From Candidatus Oscillibacter excrementigallinarum (GTDB lineage Bacteria > Bacillota > Clostridia > Oscillospirales > Oscillospiraceae): 64,000 nucleotides of DNA. Positions 47,581 to 53,889 of this stretch are shown here, piece by piece. The translations under genes were made by a program, and so were the position numbers. Every line of letters starts with the position of its first letter. Within the stretch, counting starts at the first letter, position 1. Location of the stretch: NCBI GenBank assembly GCA_019118245.1, contig DWZJ01000022.1:1-64000 (forward strand). The letters are read 5' to 3'. The notes below the pieces were generated by a model that was not told where the DNA came from, searched no databases, and saw only the letters and a program-made list of their open reading frames with translations.

Positions 47581-48732
47581 CTATTCCAGGGGGATCTCCA
47601 CATCCCCCACCCGGACGGCGGCCACCTGGCCCACGTCCAGCAGGTCCTGGAACTGGCTGGTGAAGCTGGCGGAGGTATAGGTGCCGCCTTCTCCGCCGCG
47701 GCTGCCGCCGCCGGTCAGGCCGGAGGTCGGCGCGGACACCGGCTGGACGGTGCCGTCCCGGAACACCAGGGCGGTGTCCGCCCGAAGTTCACCGATCTTC
47801 CGATACGGGGTACCGCCGGAGGCCTCCACGCTGAGAGAGAAGGGGGACACCGAGACTTGGATAGCGCGGCCGTCCTCCTGCCAGGAGCCGGTCAAAGTCT
47901 GGGAGATGGCCTCCGGCTGGAAGGTGAGGATGGCTGGGTGGTCTGTCACCGCCGTGTCCACGCCGTTCACCCGCAGAACGGGCGGCAGAACTAGCAGAGT
48001 CAGGGGCTGGGCGGTGAAGTCCAGGTCACCGTCCTTCGCCGTGATGCTGCAAAGGTAGGTGAGGGTGTGGCTCTCTGGTGCATAGCCCTGACTGGCTACC
48101 TCGCCGGAACTCCCGGAGGTGTAGTGAGAGATACAGTCCTCCGCTAGGGCGTTGCCGGTGATCCCGGTGTAATGGCAGTAGGAGAGAAAGTCTGCCCAGT
48201 CAATATCCGCCCATTTGTCCTGATCTGCGGCTTTTAGATCCTCCCAGGAGAAGTCCCCGGTGAGATAGTAGTCGACGGGCACCGGAACAATCATATGGTC
48301 GGATGAGGGGCTGCTGTCCGCCTGCTGGACTGCCGCCCGGTCCACCGTGTCCGGCAGATGGTAGTCCAGGATCAGATAGAGGCTTTTCTCACTGACCAGG
48401 GCCTGCCGCACTGTCAGGGTCACATCGTCGCAAACCGAAGTGACATGCACCTCCTGAAACGCCGCCTGCCCCATGGGGGTGGAGGCGGCCCACGCCCCAA
48501 ATCGGCTGGCGAGAATGGCGTCCCAGTTGGCGACGACCACCGCCCCGGCGGAGACCGTCAGAAGGACGATCAGCACCGCCGCCAGCGCCGCCTTGCGGAC
48601 AAAGCCCTTGGGCCGAAAGACGGCGGGCCGCGCCTGTGGCGTCGGCTCTGCCGACAAAACGGCCTCCCGCAGCCGGGACTCCAGCTCCGGCGGGGGCGCG
48701 CAGTGTTCCATTGCGTCGCGATAGCGATTCAT
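47581..48732 (-). CDS. DUF4179 anti-sigma factor (pair 1)
   Basis: A 383-residue membrane protein. The cytosolic N terminus (1-45) has MNRYRDAMEHCAPPPELESRLREAVL, a single helix lies at about 47-70 (AALAAVLIVLLTVSAGAVVVA), and the large extracytoplasmic part contains DUF4179 and ends VAAVRVGDVEIPLE. It should hold the ECF sigma factor at the membrane. ATG overlaps the sigma stop (ATGA) with GGGAGGG upstream. It is a paralogue of the protein at 52069, sharing the C-terminal (I/V)GDVxIPL motif. Confidence 0.82.
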   Translation of the reverse strand: MNRYRDAMEHCAPPPELESRLREAVLSAEPTPQARPAVFRPKGFVRKAALAAVLIVLLTVSAGAVVVANWDAILASRFGAWAASTPMGQAAFQEVHVTSVCDDVTLTVRQALVSEKSLYLILDYHLPDTVDRAAVQQADSSPSSDHMIVPVPVDYYLTGDFSWEDLKAADQDKWADIDWADFLSYCHYTGITGNALAEDCISHYTSGSSGEVASQGYAPESHTLTYLCSITAKDGDLDFTAQPLTLLVLPPVLRVNGVDTAVTDHPAILTFQPEAISQTLTGSWQEDGRAIQVSVSPFSLSVEASGGTPYRKIGELRADTALVFRDGTVQPVSAPTSGLTGGGSRGGEGGTYTSASFTSQFQDLLDVGQVAAVRVGDVEIPLE

Positions 48733-49196
48733 AAGTGTCCCTCCCATGCTGTCCGCAGGGCGTCCCGGCCCCGCTTCAGCCGCATTTTCACCGTGGGCAC
48801 CGTCACCCCCAGGAGCCGCGCGATCTCCCGGAGGGAGTACCCCTCATAGTAGCGGAGGTGGATGGCCGTCCGCTGGGGCTCCGGCAGGGCGGCCACATGG
48901 TCCAGCAGGCCCAGCTCCTCCGGTGTGACGGCGGCGGATGCGGCCTCCAGCGGCAGGTCTGACCGGCTGGAGCGTTTCCAGGCGTCCCGGCACTGGTTCA
49001 GGGCCACCCGGAACAGCCACCGCCGTTCGTGCTCCGGCGAGGCAAAGGCCGGCGCCCGGTACAGCCGCTTGCAGAACACCTCCTGCAAGACGTCCTCCGC
49101 GTCTGCCGGGTCCTTCATCTGGAGAAGGCAGAAGCGGTACAGAGAGGGCCCATAGGTCCGGTACACCTGCTCAAAGAGCCGCTCCGATTCGGTCAC
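48729..49196 (-). CDS. ECF sigma factor (pair 1)
   Basis: A 155-residue sigma-70 family ECF factor. Region 2: FEQVYRTYGPSLYRFCLLQMKDPADAEDVLQEVFCKRLY. Region 4: LPEPQRTAIHLRYYEGYSLREIARLLGVTVPTVKMRLKRGRDAL. The GTG at 49196 is preferred because GGGAGG lies 8 nt upstream; the GTG of the ORF track overlaps that site. It is co-transcribed with its anti-sigma gene and probably autoregulated from the motif at 49219-49245. Confidence 0.9.
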   Translation of the reverse strand: MTESERLFEQVYRTYGPSLYRFCLLQMKDPADAEDVLQEVFCKRLYRAPAFASPEHERRWLFRVALNQCRDAWKRSSRSDLPLEAASAAVTPEELGLLDHVAALPEPQRTAIHLRYYEGYSLREIARLLGVTVPTVKMRLKRGRDALRTAWEGHL

Positions 49197-49218
49197 TGGC
49201 CTCACCTCCCTCTGCTTT

Positions 49219-49245
49219 GATTACGAATGAGCAGGGCAAAAAGTC
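49219..49245 (-). promoter_or_regulatory. Putative ECF autoregulatory promoter (pair 1)
   Basis: On the minus strand GACTTTTT, 13 bp and GTAATC (within TCGTAATC) precede the sigma gene. The same GACTTTTT-N13-GTA arrangement lies before the second sigma gene. Confidence 0.6.
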
Positions 49246-49260
49246 ACAGGGAGTTGCGAA

Positions 49261-49290
49261 AAAACGCCCGGCTTTTGCCGGGCGTTTTCA
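49261..49290 (-). terminator. Terminator of recG
   Basis: Arms AAAACGCCCGGC / GCCGGGCGTTTT with a TTTT loop, overlapping the recG stop region and ending in TTTT on the minus strand. Confidence 0.85.
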
Positions 49291-51336
49291 GTTCAGGGTA
49301 TCCGCCGCCTGGGTGAACAGGGCCTGGATGCGCTCCGCCGTGGCGGGGCAGGAGGTGAGCTCCGGATCCTCCGCCAGCAGCTGCTCCGCCGCCTGGCGGG
49401 CCTCCTGCAGCAGCAGGGTGTCGCAGCCCAGATCCGCCACCTTCAGGCCCGGCAGGCCGTGCTGCCGCTGGCCGAAGAAGTCGCCGGGGCCCCGGAGCCG
49501 CAGGTCCTCCTCCGCGATCTTGAAGCCGTCGGTGGTCTTGGTCATGACCTTTAGCCGCGCCCGGGTCTCCTCGTTCTGGTTGTCGGAGATCAGGATGCAG
49601 TAGGACTGATGCTTCCCCCGGCCCACCCGGCCCCGCAGCTGGTGGAGCTGGGAGAGGCCGAACCGCTCCGCGTTTTCAATCACCATGACGGCGGCGTTGG
49701 GCACGTCCACTCCCACCTCGATGACGGTGGTGGACACCAGGATGTCCGTCTCGTGGGCGGCGAAGGCGGTCATGACTGCGTCCTTCTCCTTGGGCTTCAT
49801 CTTGCCGTGGACGAAGGCCACCTTCAGGTCGGGGAACACCTCGGCCTGGAGCTTTTTGGCATACTCCGTCACCGCCTTCCGCTCGTCGGGGAGCTCGTCA
49901 TTTTCCTCGACCATGGGGCAGACGATGTAGGCCTGGCGGCCCTCGCCCACCAGCTTGCGGATAAAGTTATACACCCGCTGGTGGTAGCCGCCGCTGACGG
50001 CGAAGGTCTGCACCGGCTGGCGGCCGGGGGGCAGCTGGTCGATGACGGACACGTCCAGGTCACCGTACAAAATCAAGGCCAGCGTCCGGGGGATGGGCGT
50101 GGCGGACATGACCAGGATGTGGGGGTGGTCCCCCTTGGCGGCCAGGTCCGCCCGCTGGGCCACGCCGAAGCGGTGCTGCTCGTCCGTTACCACCAGCCCC
50201 AGGTCGCGGTAGGCCACGCTGCCGGTGATGAGGGCGTGGGTGCCGATGGCGAAGTCGATCTCCCCGCTCTCCAGCTGCTGGGCGATGGAGCGCTTCGTCT
50301 TGGCGGTGGTGGAGCCGGTCAGCAGGGCACACCGGATGCCCAAATTTTCCAGCAGGGGGGCCAGGCCTTGGTAGTGCTGCTGGGCCAGGATCTCCGTGGG
50401 GGCCATCAGGGCCGCCTGACGGCCGTTCTTCACGCAGAAGTACACACAGGCGGCGGCCACCATGGTCTTGCCGGAGCCCACGTCCCCCTGGACCAGACGG
50501 TTCATGGGCGTGCCGGAGCGCATGTCCGCCAGGGCCTCCTCCACGCAGCGGCGCTGGGCGTCTGTCAGGGTAAAGGGGAGGGCGGAATAGAAGGGCTCCA
50601 TGTCCACATCGCCGCAGGGGGGCACATGGACCACCTCACGGCGTTGGCGGAGCCGCTCCAGCCCGATGGTGAAGAGAAACAGCTCCTCAAAGGCCAGCCG
50701 CCGCCGGGCCAGGTCCAGGGCCTCCGCGCTCTCCGGGAAGTGGATGTTCTCGTAGGCGTACTCGATGCGGCAGAGCTGGTACTCCCGCCGCACCCGGTCC
50801 GGCAGCACATCCGGCAGGATGTCGGCGCAGGCGTCCAGCCCCTGGCGGATGGACCGGGACAAAATCAGCTGGCTGACCCCGGCGGTGAGGGGATAGATGG
50901 GCACGATGCGGCCGGTGACCTCCCGGCGTCCCTCCGGCTCCACCACGGGATTCGTCATCTGGCGGCGGAAGAGGGAGCCCTCCGCCCGGCCGTAGAAGAT
51001 ATACGTCTCCCCCTGGCGCAGGTTGTTTTTCAGCCACGCCTGGTTGAAGAAGGTCACGTTTAATTCCCCGGTGTCGTCCACCGCCCGGAGCTTCACCAGG
51101 TCCAGTCCACGGCGGACATGGGAGATGGTGGGAGGTGACGATACCATGGCGGCCACGCCGGCGGCCTCGCCGGGCGCCAGGTCGGCGAGGCGGCGGAGCT
51201 GGGTGCGGTCGTCATAGGCCCGGGGGAAGTAGGAGATCAGGTCCCGCAGGGTGGCGATGCCCAGTTTGCCCAGGGCCTTGGCCCGCTGCTCCCCGATGCC
51301 CTTGATGTAGCGCACGTCTGTATTCAGGTCCGCCAT
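49288..51336 (-). CDS. recG: ATP-dependent DNA helicase RecG
   Basis: A 682-residue RecG that remodels stalled forks and Holliday junctions. The N-terminal wedge/OB domain has DVRYIKGIGEQRAKALGKLGI. Walker A is GDVGSGKTMVA, motif II DEQHRFG, then MSATPIPRTLALILYGDLDVSVID and helicase C motif VIENAERFGLSQLHQLRGRVGRG. The C terminus has LRLRGPGDFFGQRQHGLPGLK. The ATG at 51336 follows GGGAGGTGA; the ORF track adds nine residues. It lies between two ECF sigma modules. Confidence 0.97.
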   Translation of the reverse strand: MADLNTDVRYIKGIGEQRAKALGKLGIATLRDLISYFPRAYDDRTQLRRLADLAPGEAAGVAAMVSSPPTISHVRRGLDLVKLRAVDDTGELNVTFFNQAWLKNNLRQGETYIFYGRAEGSLFRRQMTNPVVEPEGRREVTGRIVPIYPLTAGVSQLILSRSIRQGLDACADILPDVLPDRVRREYQLCRIEYAYENIHFPESAEALDLARRRLAFEELFLFTIGLERLRQRREVVHVPPCGDVDMEPFYSALPFTLTDAQRRCVEEALADMRSGTPMNRLVQGDVGSGKTMVAAACVYFCVKNGRQAALMAPTEILAQQHYQGLAPLLENLGIRCALLTGSTTAKTKRSIAQQLESGEIDFAIGTHALITGSVAYRDLGLVVTDEQHRFGVAQRADLAAKGDHPHILVMSATPIPRTLALILYGDLDVSVIDQLPPGRQPVQTFAVSGGYHQRVYNFIRKLVGEGRQAYIVCPMVEENDELPDERKAVTEYAKKLQAEVFPDLKVAFVHGKMKPKEKDAVMTAFAAHETDILVSTTVIEVGVDVPNAAVMVIENAERFGLSQLHQLRGRVGRGKHQSYCILISDNQNEETRARLKVMTKTTDGFKIAEEDLRLRGPGDFFGQRQHGLPGLKVADLGCDTLLLQEARQAAEQLLAEDPELTSCPATAERIQALFTQAADTLN

Positions 51337-51371
51337 TGGATCACCTCCCACTCTGTAAATCATTGCTCCCC

Positions 51372-51400
51372 ATTATATAATGACACCAGAGAAAAAACAA
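51372..51400 (-). promoter_or_regulatory. Promoter of recG
   Basis: On the minus strand TTGTTT, a 17-bp spacer and TATAAT, about 36 bp before the recG ATG. Confidence 0.7.
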
Positions 51401-51412
51401 GGAGACGGCCTT

Positions 51413-51475
51413 ATGCAGCAGCGTTTGTGTGCCTTGCCTGTGAAAATCTGGATGCAGAAAATCACCAAGGGATGA
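51413..51475 (+). CDS. Possible 20-residue ORF of unknown status
   Basis: ATG to TGA with AAGGAGA about 7 nt before the start, encoding MQQRLCALPVKIWMQKITKG. It lies in the 255-bp gap between recG and the second sigma gene. The composition is not distinctive and nothing shows that it is expressed. Recorded because of its good ribosome binding site. Confidence 0.2.
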   Translation: MQQRLCALPVKIWMQKITKG

Positions 51476-51518
51476 CATTTGGAGGAAATCAGCAAAATAG
51501 AAAAACAATTTTGTATGG

Positions 51519-51545
51519 GACTTTTTCAAATCATTGGCAGTATTA
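51519..51545 (+). promoter_or_regulatory. Putative ECF autoregulatory promoter (pair 2)
   Basis: GACTTTTT (51519-51526), 13 bp, then GTATTA (51540-51545), 46 bp before the sigma ATG. Motif and spacing match the site before the first ECF gene. Confidence 0.6.
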
Positions 51546-51591
51546 TAGGTGAAAAGCTTTTCAAAGAAATCCACATGGGAGACGGGCAATT

Positions 51592-52065
51592 ATGCGGGGA
51601 GAACAAGAATTCAACACGGCTGTGGAACAATACTTGAATATGGTCTATCGCATTGCACTGAACTGGTTCGGCAATGTCCATGATGCGGAGGACGCAGCAC
51701 AGGAGGTGATGCTCCGTCTGTGGAAAAGCGCGTCCGTACCCGAGGATGAGAGCCATCTGCGACACTGGCTAGTGCGGGTGACGATCAATGTCTGCAAAGA
51801 TCTATCCCGGTCGCCGTGGCGGCAGCACGTGATCCCTCTTGGGGAAACTCAGACGGAATCCTACGTTGCGGAACCAGAGTCCCAGGAGGTGCTGGAAGAG
51901 GTCATGCGACTGCCCAAAAAGTACCGCATCCCGCTGTATCTCTTCCATTATGAGGGCTATTCCATCAAAGAAATCGGAGAGTTGCTGAAAATCAATCCGT
52001 CAACCATACGCACAAGACTTTCCAGAGCGAGAGAACTGCTGAAAAATCAGCTGGAGGAGGCGTGA
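51592..52065 (+). CDS. ECF sigma factor (pair 2)
   Basis: A 157-residue ECF sigma factor. Region 2: YLNMVYRIALNWFGNVHDAEDAAQEVMLRLWKS. Region 4: LPKKYRIPLYLFHYEGYSIKEIGELLKINPSTIRTRLSRARELL. Its ribosome binding site (GGGAGA) is weak. Base composition is clearly less GC-rich than the surrounding genes. The anti-sigma gene follows after 3 bp. Confidence 0.9.
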   Translation: MRGEQEFNTAVEQYLNMVYRIALNWFGNVHDAEDAAQEVMLRLWKSASVPEDESHLRHWLVRVTINVCKDLSRSPWRQHVIPLGETQTESYVAEPESQEVLEEVMRLPKKYRIPLYLFHYEGYSIKEIGELLKINPSTIRTRLSRARELLKNQLEEA

Positions 52066-52068
52066 CAG

Positions 52069-53229
52069 ATGCAAACGAAATATCAGAAAGCTTTCGACCA
52101 TGTCACCGCCTCTGACCGATTGAAAGAGGAGGTGCTGAACATGACAAAACAGGAGAAAGAGACGCTGCGCAGGCAGATTCCCAAGGCTGCCCTAGTTGCT
52201 GCCATCATCATTTTGATCTTGGCCGGAACGGCCGTGGCGGTGAGTATACCAGGCATCCAGGACTGGTTCCAGCAGTATTGGCAGGAGGCCGGCGGAGGCG
52301 CTCCCATGACAGCGGAGCAGGAGACAGCCATCGGACAAATGACCCAATCCGTCGGAACTTCTGCTCAATCGGAGAAAGCAGAGGCAGAAGAGGACGAAAA
52401 CCTGGCTGCTGGGGAAAACCTGCCGCCTGAAGGGGAGTCCCCTGCGGAGAAAACGTCAGGGGGAGAAACGGTGGAAGCGCCCGGCAGGAACCAGGCATCC
52501 GAATCCGCTACAAACGGAGACAAGCCGGTTGCAGAAACAGTGGGCACTACAGTTAGCTTAGACTCTGTGACGGTTGGGGAAAAACATCTCTGGATGCTAC
52601 TTCACGTTAGTGGAACATTTGAGCCTGGAAAGTCATATAGTTTTGAGAGATCTGAACTTATAGGGGCGCCAGAAAAAGTCTACGAAGATCTTGGAATTAA
52701 GGTGGGGAAGGGACTTACTTGCAGCAGCAACGTTTTAGAAGATGGAAGCCTGCAAATTTTGGCCCAATATCAAAGCCCTGATCCAAATGCCGATTTAACG
52801 GAAGGCGGGAATCTCTGCCTGCATTTGGAAAATCTCCTGATGGATCGAGAGCCGCTTCTGGAAGGACAATGGGATATCCCCTTTACCCTGGAGCAAGCGT
52901 CGGCGATGCCTGCAATCAAGCTGGAAAATATAAGCATCCCGGTACCTGAATCGGAAGACGCAGGTGACATAAACTTCCAGGAAATCCGCATAACGTCCAC
53001 AGGAATGGAGCTGATTTGCGATGCGCAATATGCCGGATCTACACTTTGGCCGGACGTGGCCCTGATTCTGACAGATGGAAGCGAAATTGAAGCTGGCGCG
53101 GCTCATGCATCCTGGGAAGGAGAGGCAGATACAAGCCTCTGGATTACCGATTACACCTGGAAAGTGCCCATCGCCTTGGAGCAGGCGTCTTCCGTCCGGA
53201 TCGGGGACGTGTTGATTCCGCTGAAATAA
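52069..53229 (+). CDS. DUF4179 anti-sigma factor (pair 2)
   Basis: A 386-residue membrane protein laid out like the pair-1 anti-sigma: a short cytosolic N terminus (1-45), one helix (about 44-65, VAAIIILILAGTAVAVSI), an acidic Ser/Glu/Gly-rich stalk (about 85-155), and an extracytoplasmic domain ending ASSVRIGDVLIPLK. It should sequester the adjacent ECF sigma. GC content is near 50 percent, well below the window average, and codon use is different, suggesting recent acquisition. AGGAGGCG precedes the ATG. Confidence 0.8.
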   Translation: MQTKYQKAFDHVTASDRLKEEVLNMTKQEKETLRRQIPKAALVAAIIILILAGTAVAVSIPGIQDWFQQYWQEAGGGAPMTAEQETAIGQMTQSVGTSAQSEKAEAEEDENLAAGENLPPEGESPAEKTSGGETVEAPGRNQASESATNGDKPVAETVGTTVSLDSVTVGEKHLWMLLHVSGTFEPGKSYSFERSELIGAPEKVYEDLGIKVGKGLTCSSNVLEDGSLQILAQYQSPDPNADLTEGGNLCLHLENLLMDREPLLEGQWDIPFTLEQASAMPAIKLENISIPVPESEDAGDINFQEIRITSTGMELICDAQYAGSTLWPDVALILTDGSEIEAGAAHASWEGEADTSLWITDYTWKVPIALEQASSVRIGDVLIPLK

Positions 53230-53280
53230 TGGTGAAATCTACTGTGCCATATTCTCAGAATTTACCAAGGCACTCAGTTT

Positions 53281-53316
53281 TAAAGTGCAGTAACCATACG
53301 CGGTTACTGCACTTTA
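53281..53316 (+). terminator. Hairpin terminator after second sigma operon
   Basis: Arms TAAAGTGCAGTAACC / GGTTACTGCACTTTA with a short loop. The T-tail is poor. Confidence 0.65.
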
Positions 53317-53391
53317 ACTATACGCCAAGCGGCAATTTGCTTGTTGTTCTTGTATGGGATAGGACGACGGCGAGCGCACCGCCTTTTCCTT

Positions 53392-53889
53392 TTACAGGTT
53401 CGTGTTCACATAGTCATAGAACCGGTAGGTGAGGCCGTTTTCCGCCACCGGGTCGCTGATGGACGCCACCGTCCAGCCGGGCAGCTTGTCCAGGTTGGGG
53501 AAGAAGGAGTCCGCCCCCTCCGCGGCGGCGTCCACCCGGGTCACATACGCCCGCCGGCACTTGGAGAGCAGGGCGGCGTAGATGCTGCCGCCGCCGATGA
53601 CCCAGAGGTGGTCCTGGGGGGTGTCCGCCGCAGCCTCCATGGCGGCCTGCAGGCTGGAGACCACCACGGCCCCCTCCCGGTGAAAGTCCGCGCAGCGGGT
53701 GATGACGATGTTCTTCCGCCTGGGCAGGGGCTTCCCGCCGGGGAAGGAGTCCAGGGTCCGGCGGCCCAGGATGACGGTGCCCTCCAGAGTGAGGGAGCGG
53801 AAGCGCTTCATGTCCGTGGGCAGGGAAAAGAGCAGATCGTTGTCCCGGCCAATGGCCCAGTTTCGATCCACGACGACAATGGCATTCAC
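53392..53889 (-). CDS. folA: Dihydrofolate reductase
   Basis: A 165-residue DHFR that reduces dihydrofolate with NADPH. MNAIVVVDRNWAIGRDNDLLFSLPTDMKRF holds the substrate loop, with VILGRRTLDSFP and VIGGGSIYAALL for NADPH. The usual acidic active-site residue is D in LPTDMKRF. It starts 13 bp after thyA, forming the classic thyA-folA unit. Confidence 0.96.
   Translation of the reverse strand: MNAIVVVDRNWAIGRDNDLLFSLPTDMKRFRSLTLEGTVILGRRTLDSFPGGKPLPRRKNIVITRCADFHREGAVVVSSLQAAMEAAADTPQDHLWVIGGGSIYAALLSKCRRAYVTRVDAAAEGADSFFPNLDKLPGWTVASISDPVAENGLTYRFYDYVNTNL

Follow-up and report, generated by a model that had tools for sequence, protein, structure and literature searches.

Two ECF sigma factor operons flank recG

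The window, i.e. the 64,000-nucleotide stretch analysed here (contig DWZJ01000022.1 of Candidatus Oscillibacter excrementigallinarum, assembly GCA_019118245.1), carries two sigma factor genes on opposite strands with recG (49288..51363, minus strand) between them. The first, s1 (48729..49196, minus strand), likely starts with a GTG at 49196, and the second, s2 (51592..52065, plus strand), with an ATG at 51592. Both proteins (157-158 aa) score above the cut-off for Pfam Sigma70_r2 and Sigma70_r4_2 and for no other sigma region, and are ECF (group IV) sigma factors by the defining set of regions 2 and 4 only in about 160 aa. Sigma region 2 is encoded by 29 genes in the whole genome (2.41 Mb in 108 contigs), and 19 of these were treated as ECF; in the paralogue comparison, s1 and s2 do not pair up as nearest relatives, as s1 shares 65% identity with a paralogue on contig 97 and s2 57% with one on contig 98. 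Downstream of each lies a gene for a protein with one hydrophobic (membrane) segment, at 47581..48747 (minus strand) for s1 and at 52069..53229 (plus strand) for s2, with a weak (E 9e-4) and a very weak (E 0.0076) DUF4179 match, respectively, both below the Pfam curated cut-off. DUF4179 is found in the RsiV and RsiP anti-sigma factors (PMC6066255, PMC8844934), and the two membrane proteins are candidate anti-sigma factors. No experimental work on the s1 or s2 genes was found in open-licence papers.

Upstream of both sigma genes, the preliminary description had pointed out the string GACTTTTT, followed after exactly 13 bp by GTA, and this pair is present just as described: at 49222-49245 on the minus strand, 26 bases ahead of the s1 start (full site GACTTTTTGCCCTGCTCATTCGTA), and at 51519-51542 on the plus strand, 50 bases ahead of the s2 start (full site GACTTTTTCAAATCATTGGCAGTA). 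The s1 site comprises a −35 element TGTGAC (49243..49248, minus strand), which recurs as TGTGACC in same-genus s1 orthologues, and a −10 element CGTAAT (49220..49225, minus strand), assigned from the sequence, a cross-genome model and the orthologues; the s2 site comprises TGGGAC (51516..51521, plus strand) and AGTATT (51539..51544, plus strand). Based on the numbering of Tt-RpoE1, in which GTA is counted from −12 (PMC3397946), transcription is predicted to start near 49212 for s1 and near 51552 for s2. At s1 the promoter start region is fused to the Shine-Dalgarno sequence GGGAGGTGA (49202..49210, minus strand), as in s1-type promoters in general, which lead straight into a Shine-Dalgarno (GGTGAAAGGAGG-like) and have no palindrome; at s2 a perfect palindrome, TGAAAAGCTTTTCA (51550..51563, plus strand), lies across the predicted start, from about −2 to +12, the same numbering being used to place it.

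Just upstream of the s1 promoter sits a terminator-like hairpin of recG (CCCGGC AAAA GCCGGG, then a T run; 49259..49288, minus strand), read from the sequence. An upstream gene's terminator-like hairpin also adjoins the ECF promoter at L035/L036, its T run there merging with the −35 (CTTTTTTGTGACC). An Rfam scan of 48000-53500 returned only two sub-threshold chance matches and no known RNA family. A third ECF gene is encoded nearby (contig 9, 66585, L027), just past the window, with AAC-N17-CGTGTATAGGG and a 16-bp palindrome, TGAAAAGCGCTTTTCA. A conserved s1-recG-s2 order was rejected, as genome G135 has no recG between its ECF pair and in G082 recG is not near s1; the G135 pair (L093, contig 139, 12761-15992) is divergent, ordered like s1/s2 and about 2.3 kb apart, and probably arose independently of the s1/s2 arrangement.

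The shared string lies within a generic ECF promoter

With at most one mismatch, GACTTTTT-N13-GTA is expected 0.15 times in the window, and two sites were obtained in 0 of 100 shuffles. In the whole genome, three exact sites were counted versus two for a reversed control pattern, so that the string as such is not enriched genome-wide, and the joint motif was not found enriched before several genes. The third exact site, some 0.6 kb upstream of ilvC, is probably a chance occurrence. The probability that two of the three exact sites would lie no more than 150 bp ahead of any of the roughly 19 ECF genes is ~1e-6 (calculated after the fact); the string is rare, but its placement ahead of two ECF genes is not chance.

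A two-block model was trained on 47 upstream regions of s1- and s2-like genes, all taken from other members of the family, so that the own genome stayed out of the training set. Its consensus consists of TTG-[TA]-[GA]-A-C-A and [CGT]GTATT-N3-GGTGAAAG, and about 45 of the 47 regions have a gap of 16 between the two blocks. The model located the held-out sites of s1 (21.6 bits; maximum of 60 shuffles, 14.5) and s2 (22.8 bits; maximum of 60 shuffles, 20.3) on the same bases as the motif first noticed. Among the 19 ECF upstream regions of the own genome, 11 scored above all 60 shuffles and five had no clear site under the model. A pattern scan of 301 genomes of the family yielded about 108 sites versus 24 for the reversed control, and, of 110 family-wide sites examined, 80 immediately preceded an ECF gene and the remaining 30 came close to the number expected by chance; therefore, the extended promoter is essentially that of ECF operons, and no wider regulon with it was seen among these 110 sites. 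Since the own genome was searched by pattern, a regulon of few genes could have escaped detection if its promoter is degenerate.

The same architecture, i.e. a GAC/AAC-type −35, rigid spacing and a GTA-type −10, stands ahead of most of the family's ECF genes. The 185 ECF promoters collected have GAC and GTA as their common cores, and 150 of them have an A/T-rich spacer start, while the exact letters GACTTTTT occur only at s1 and s2. Same-genus s1 orthologues (89-94% identity) read TGTGACCTTTTTGCCC..CGTAAT, CGTGACCTTTCTGCCC..CGTAAT or TGTGACCTTTTGCCCC..CGTAAT; the T after GAC is thus not kept, as these close orthologues have GACC, and GTGAC-N17-CGTAAT or CGTTAT is what they retain. When this latter pattern was scanned in 51 genomes, nine of ten matches were at s1-type ECF genes, with one control match. 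Hence the shared GACTTTTT-N13-GTA is an overlap of three generic features (the GAC core of the −35, the T/A-rich beginning of the spacer and, at a fixed distance, the −10 with its GTA) and not a joint regulon motif. The proposal of an ECF-type promoter is borne out by a model from other genomes that finds both sites, whereas that of a special motif shared by s1 and s2 gave way once the letters were compared across loci. The suggestion that the string could be used to find the regulon is not supported either: a generic self-activation promoter means that a GACTTTTT-N13-GTA scan would yield noise, and even its extended form occurs almost only at ECF genes.

That two unrelated strings had simply been selected by eye is highly improbable. 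The missing genome enrichment and the missing conservation of the exact string would fit such a coincidence, but a model built from other genomes picks the same positions and the architecture is kept in orthologues.

The −35 helix co-varies with the −35 of its own promoter

Across the 185 ECF loci, a clear residue-to-base code was observed in Clostridia between the region 4.2 helix and the sigma factor's own −35. In the sample used for co-variation, 105 loci dereplicated at 70% protein identity, helix residue 4 and the C position of the −35 shared 1.17 bits of mutual information (maximum of 1000 shuffles, 0.42), an association that is partly shared ancestry, which shuffling leaves in place. 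VTT helices pair with GTGACA in 9 of 11 cases and VKV helices with GTAACC in 5 of 5; further pairs are VKM with GTGACC/T, VQT with GAGAT or GTGAT, and IRT with GRGAC-like elements. Such co-variation is what self-recognition predicts, and self-recognition is thereby indirectly supported. The helix of s1 (PTVKMRLKRGR) is of the VKM type and its −35 is TGTGAC, and that of s2 (STIRTRLSRAR) is of the IRT type and its −35 is TGGGAC, placing the two in separate −35 recognition classes; the bases that separate these classes lie just outside the motif first described and fit the own sigma factor in both cases. This supports self-regulation and not cross-regulation.

Each site is thus very probably the promoter by which one ECF sigma-anti-sigma operon activates itself, the activation by its own sigma factor being deduced from sequence. 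In this mechanism, the sigma factor, once freed from its membrane anti-sigma, would bind RNA polymerase and read its own −35 (TGTGAC for s1, TGGGAC for s2) and its own −10 (CGTAAT and AGTATT), by which its own expression would be raised.

The alternative that s1 and s2 read each other's promoter and form a small network is unlikely. The GAC core, the T run and the GTA spacing are the same in both promoters, and, since both sigma factors read a GAC core, cross-talk of lower affinity is possible. However, the −35 helices (VKM versus IRT) and the outer −35 bases differ, each true to its own class; the −10 elements differ too; same-genus s1 orthologues carry GACC; and in G082, a genome of the same genus, s1 has an orthologue but s2 no match at E ≤ 1e-30. 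Of the auto- or cross-regulation proposed in the preliminary description, the former is therefore likely, by the model sites, the ECF-adjacent sites and the helix/−35 co-variation, and the latter is disfavoured by the different −35 classes. Taken together, the evidence supports ECF promoters and self-regulation well, but not a shared motif, cross-regulation or the use of the string in finding a regulon.

The C. difficile ECF consensus sequences were stated to be still unknown (PMC7438776). A promoter model is now at hand for ECF genes in Oscillospiraceae, the regulation of which has received little study, and the helix/−35 code could serve to predict targets of ECFs that are not autoregulated.

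A palindrome spans the predicted start of half of the promoters

The genome has two exact copies of the 14-mer TGAAAAGCTTTTCA, one at s2 and one at the s2 paralogue on contig 98, both at ECF promoters. Arms of at least 5 pairs were found in 52 of the 105 dereplicated ECF promoters versus about 5 expected when the downstream part was shuffled and the 5′ arm kept, and swapping in the 3′ arm of another locus lowered the mean arm from 6.5 to 4.0. Twelve loci deviate from GAAA in the 5′ arm, nearly all with the matching change in the 3′ arm, giving co-changing arms such as GAAAG/CTTTC, GAACG/CGTTC, GAATG/CATTC and TATAATG/CATTATA. The span is about 10-16 bp and varies even inside one genome; the centre is GC in s2 and AGCT, GGCC, TGCA, CATG or GATC elsewhere; and self-complementarity extends to the four or five innermost bases in 40 of 46, which the test did not require. 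Besides the s2 site in the window, palindromes behind ECF promoters were recorded at L013, L027, L030, L211, L233, L163 and L136, and TGAAAAGCTTTTCA, TGAAACGCGTTTCA, TGAAATGCATTTCA, TGAATGCATTCA and GAACGCGTTC are examples with co-varying arms. In three genomes of the order (L296, L299, L300), GTATT plus TGAAAAGCTTTTCA was also seen in similar sequence that is not followed by an ECF gene.

Carriers include Papillibacter cinnamivorans DSM 12816, Oscillibacter valericigenes An411 and Acutalibacter sp. 1XD8-36, and the palindrome is present in Lachnospiraceae genomes as well but absent from the Paenibacillus loci examined. On the sigma-protein tree, the trait needs 18 changes versus 35 for shuffled labels; it was scored in 45 of 58 rows of the clade (99/87) holding s2 and in 0 of 8 rows around s1. 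No relevant description of palindromes at ECF start sites was found in open-licence papers. In the s2 subtype, the promoter is probably subject to a further level of control through the self-complementary element at its start. As to whether autoregulated ECF operons of Clostridia have in this element an undescribed, conserved layer of control, with a drifting sequence, a retained symmetry and s2 as one example, we consider the chances about even.

Two functions were weighed for it. An operator, at which a dimeric repressor or activator would bind over the start and limit the positive feedback, is a real possibility, if somewhat short of even. Its position over the start site, the presence of the exact 14-mer in this genome at two ECF promoters only and the perfect dyads that continue through the self-complementary centre are consistent with such a site, whereas the varying span and arm letters are unlike the site of one protein, and no regulator gene adjoins s2. 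Base pairing in the mRNA, i.e. a small 5′ structure acting on stability, translation or promoter escape, is a more tentative proposal. It is favoured by the co-varying arms and by the single mismatches, of which nine are G·T, none A·C and two G·A, G·T being G·U in the mRNA sense, although the promoter constraint on the 5′ arm could skew the mismatch type. When the order was scanned with the centre left free, all 14 ECF matches paired with G·U allowed, and the centres of the 11 non-ECF matches were mostly unrelated. Against pairing, predicted leader folds are no stabler than shuffles (median z −0.05), and the innermost pairs are complementary too, though unable to form in a hairpin. The remainder falls to some other role or to no function.

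Several more specific roles were rejected, i.e. a stable RNA hairpin (fold energy the same as in shuffles); a single fixed operator (spacing too variable); masking of the Shine-Dalgarno by the 3′ arm, which pairs with it in some leaders but whose changes track the 5′ arm and not the Shine-Dalgarno (by eye); an additional −35-like site for the same sigma factor (no correlation with the own −35 visible by eye); and, behind the palindrome, an ECF promoter on the antisense strand (no fitting −10 found by eye). If functional, the palindrome would offer a new handle on how ECF positive feedback is restrained, testable in the cultured carriers O. valericigenes An411 and P. cinnamivorans DSM 12816.

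Comparison with known systems

CcpA cre and other LacI-type operators have a fixed span and a central CG. Variants of the start-site palindrome such as TGAAAGCGCTTTCA resemble cre, but the centre is GC, AT or TA in s2 and most others and the span ranges over ~10-16 bp, by which a cre or LacI-type operator was rejected. As in the ECF30 group with sigmaV-RsiV and sigmaP-RsiP (PMC6066255, PMC8844934, PMC8791391), the ECF gene is followed by that of a single-pass membrane protein with a weak DUF4179, which here stays under the Pfam cut-off; unlike the −35 AACA reported for sigmaP, those of s1 and s2 are TGTGAC and TGGGAC.

ECF factors are typified by AAC/CGT promoters and by positive autoregulation (PMC8103513). 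Like the autoregulated ECF promoters described there, both sites show an AAC-like −35 (AAC/GAC core), a CGT-like −10 of the GTA type and rigid spacing, and adjoin a sigma gene with an anti-sigma candidate in its operon; the promoters analysed here differ from those in the extended conserved GGTGAAAG after the −10 and, at half of the loci, in a start-site palindrome. A sigma-promoter recognition code was derived from autoregulated ECFs by Todor et al. 2020, as recounted in PMC8103513, and, as far as that account goes, the helix residues there likewise predict the −35 of the own promoter, a relation observed here independently in Clostridia.
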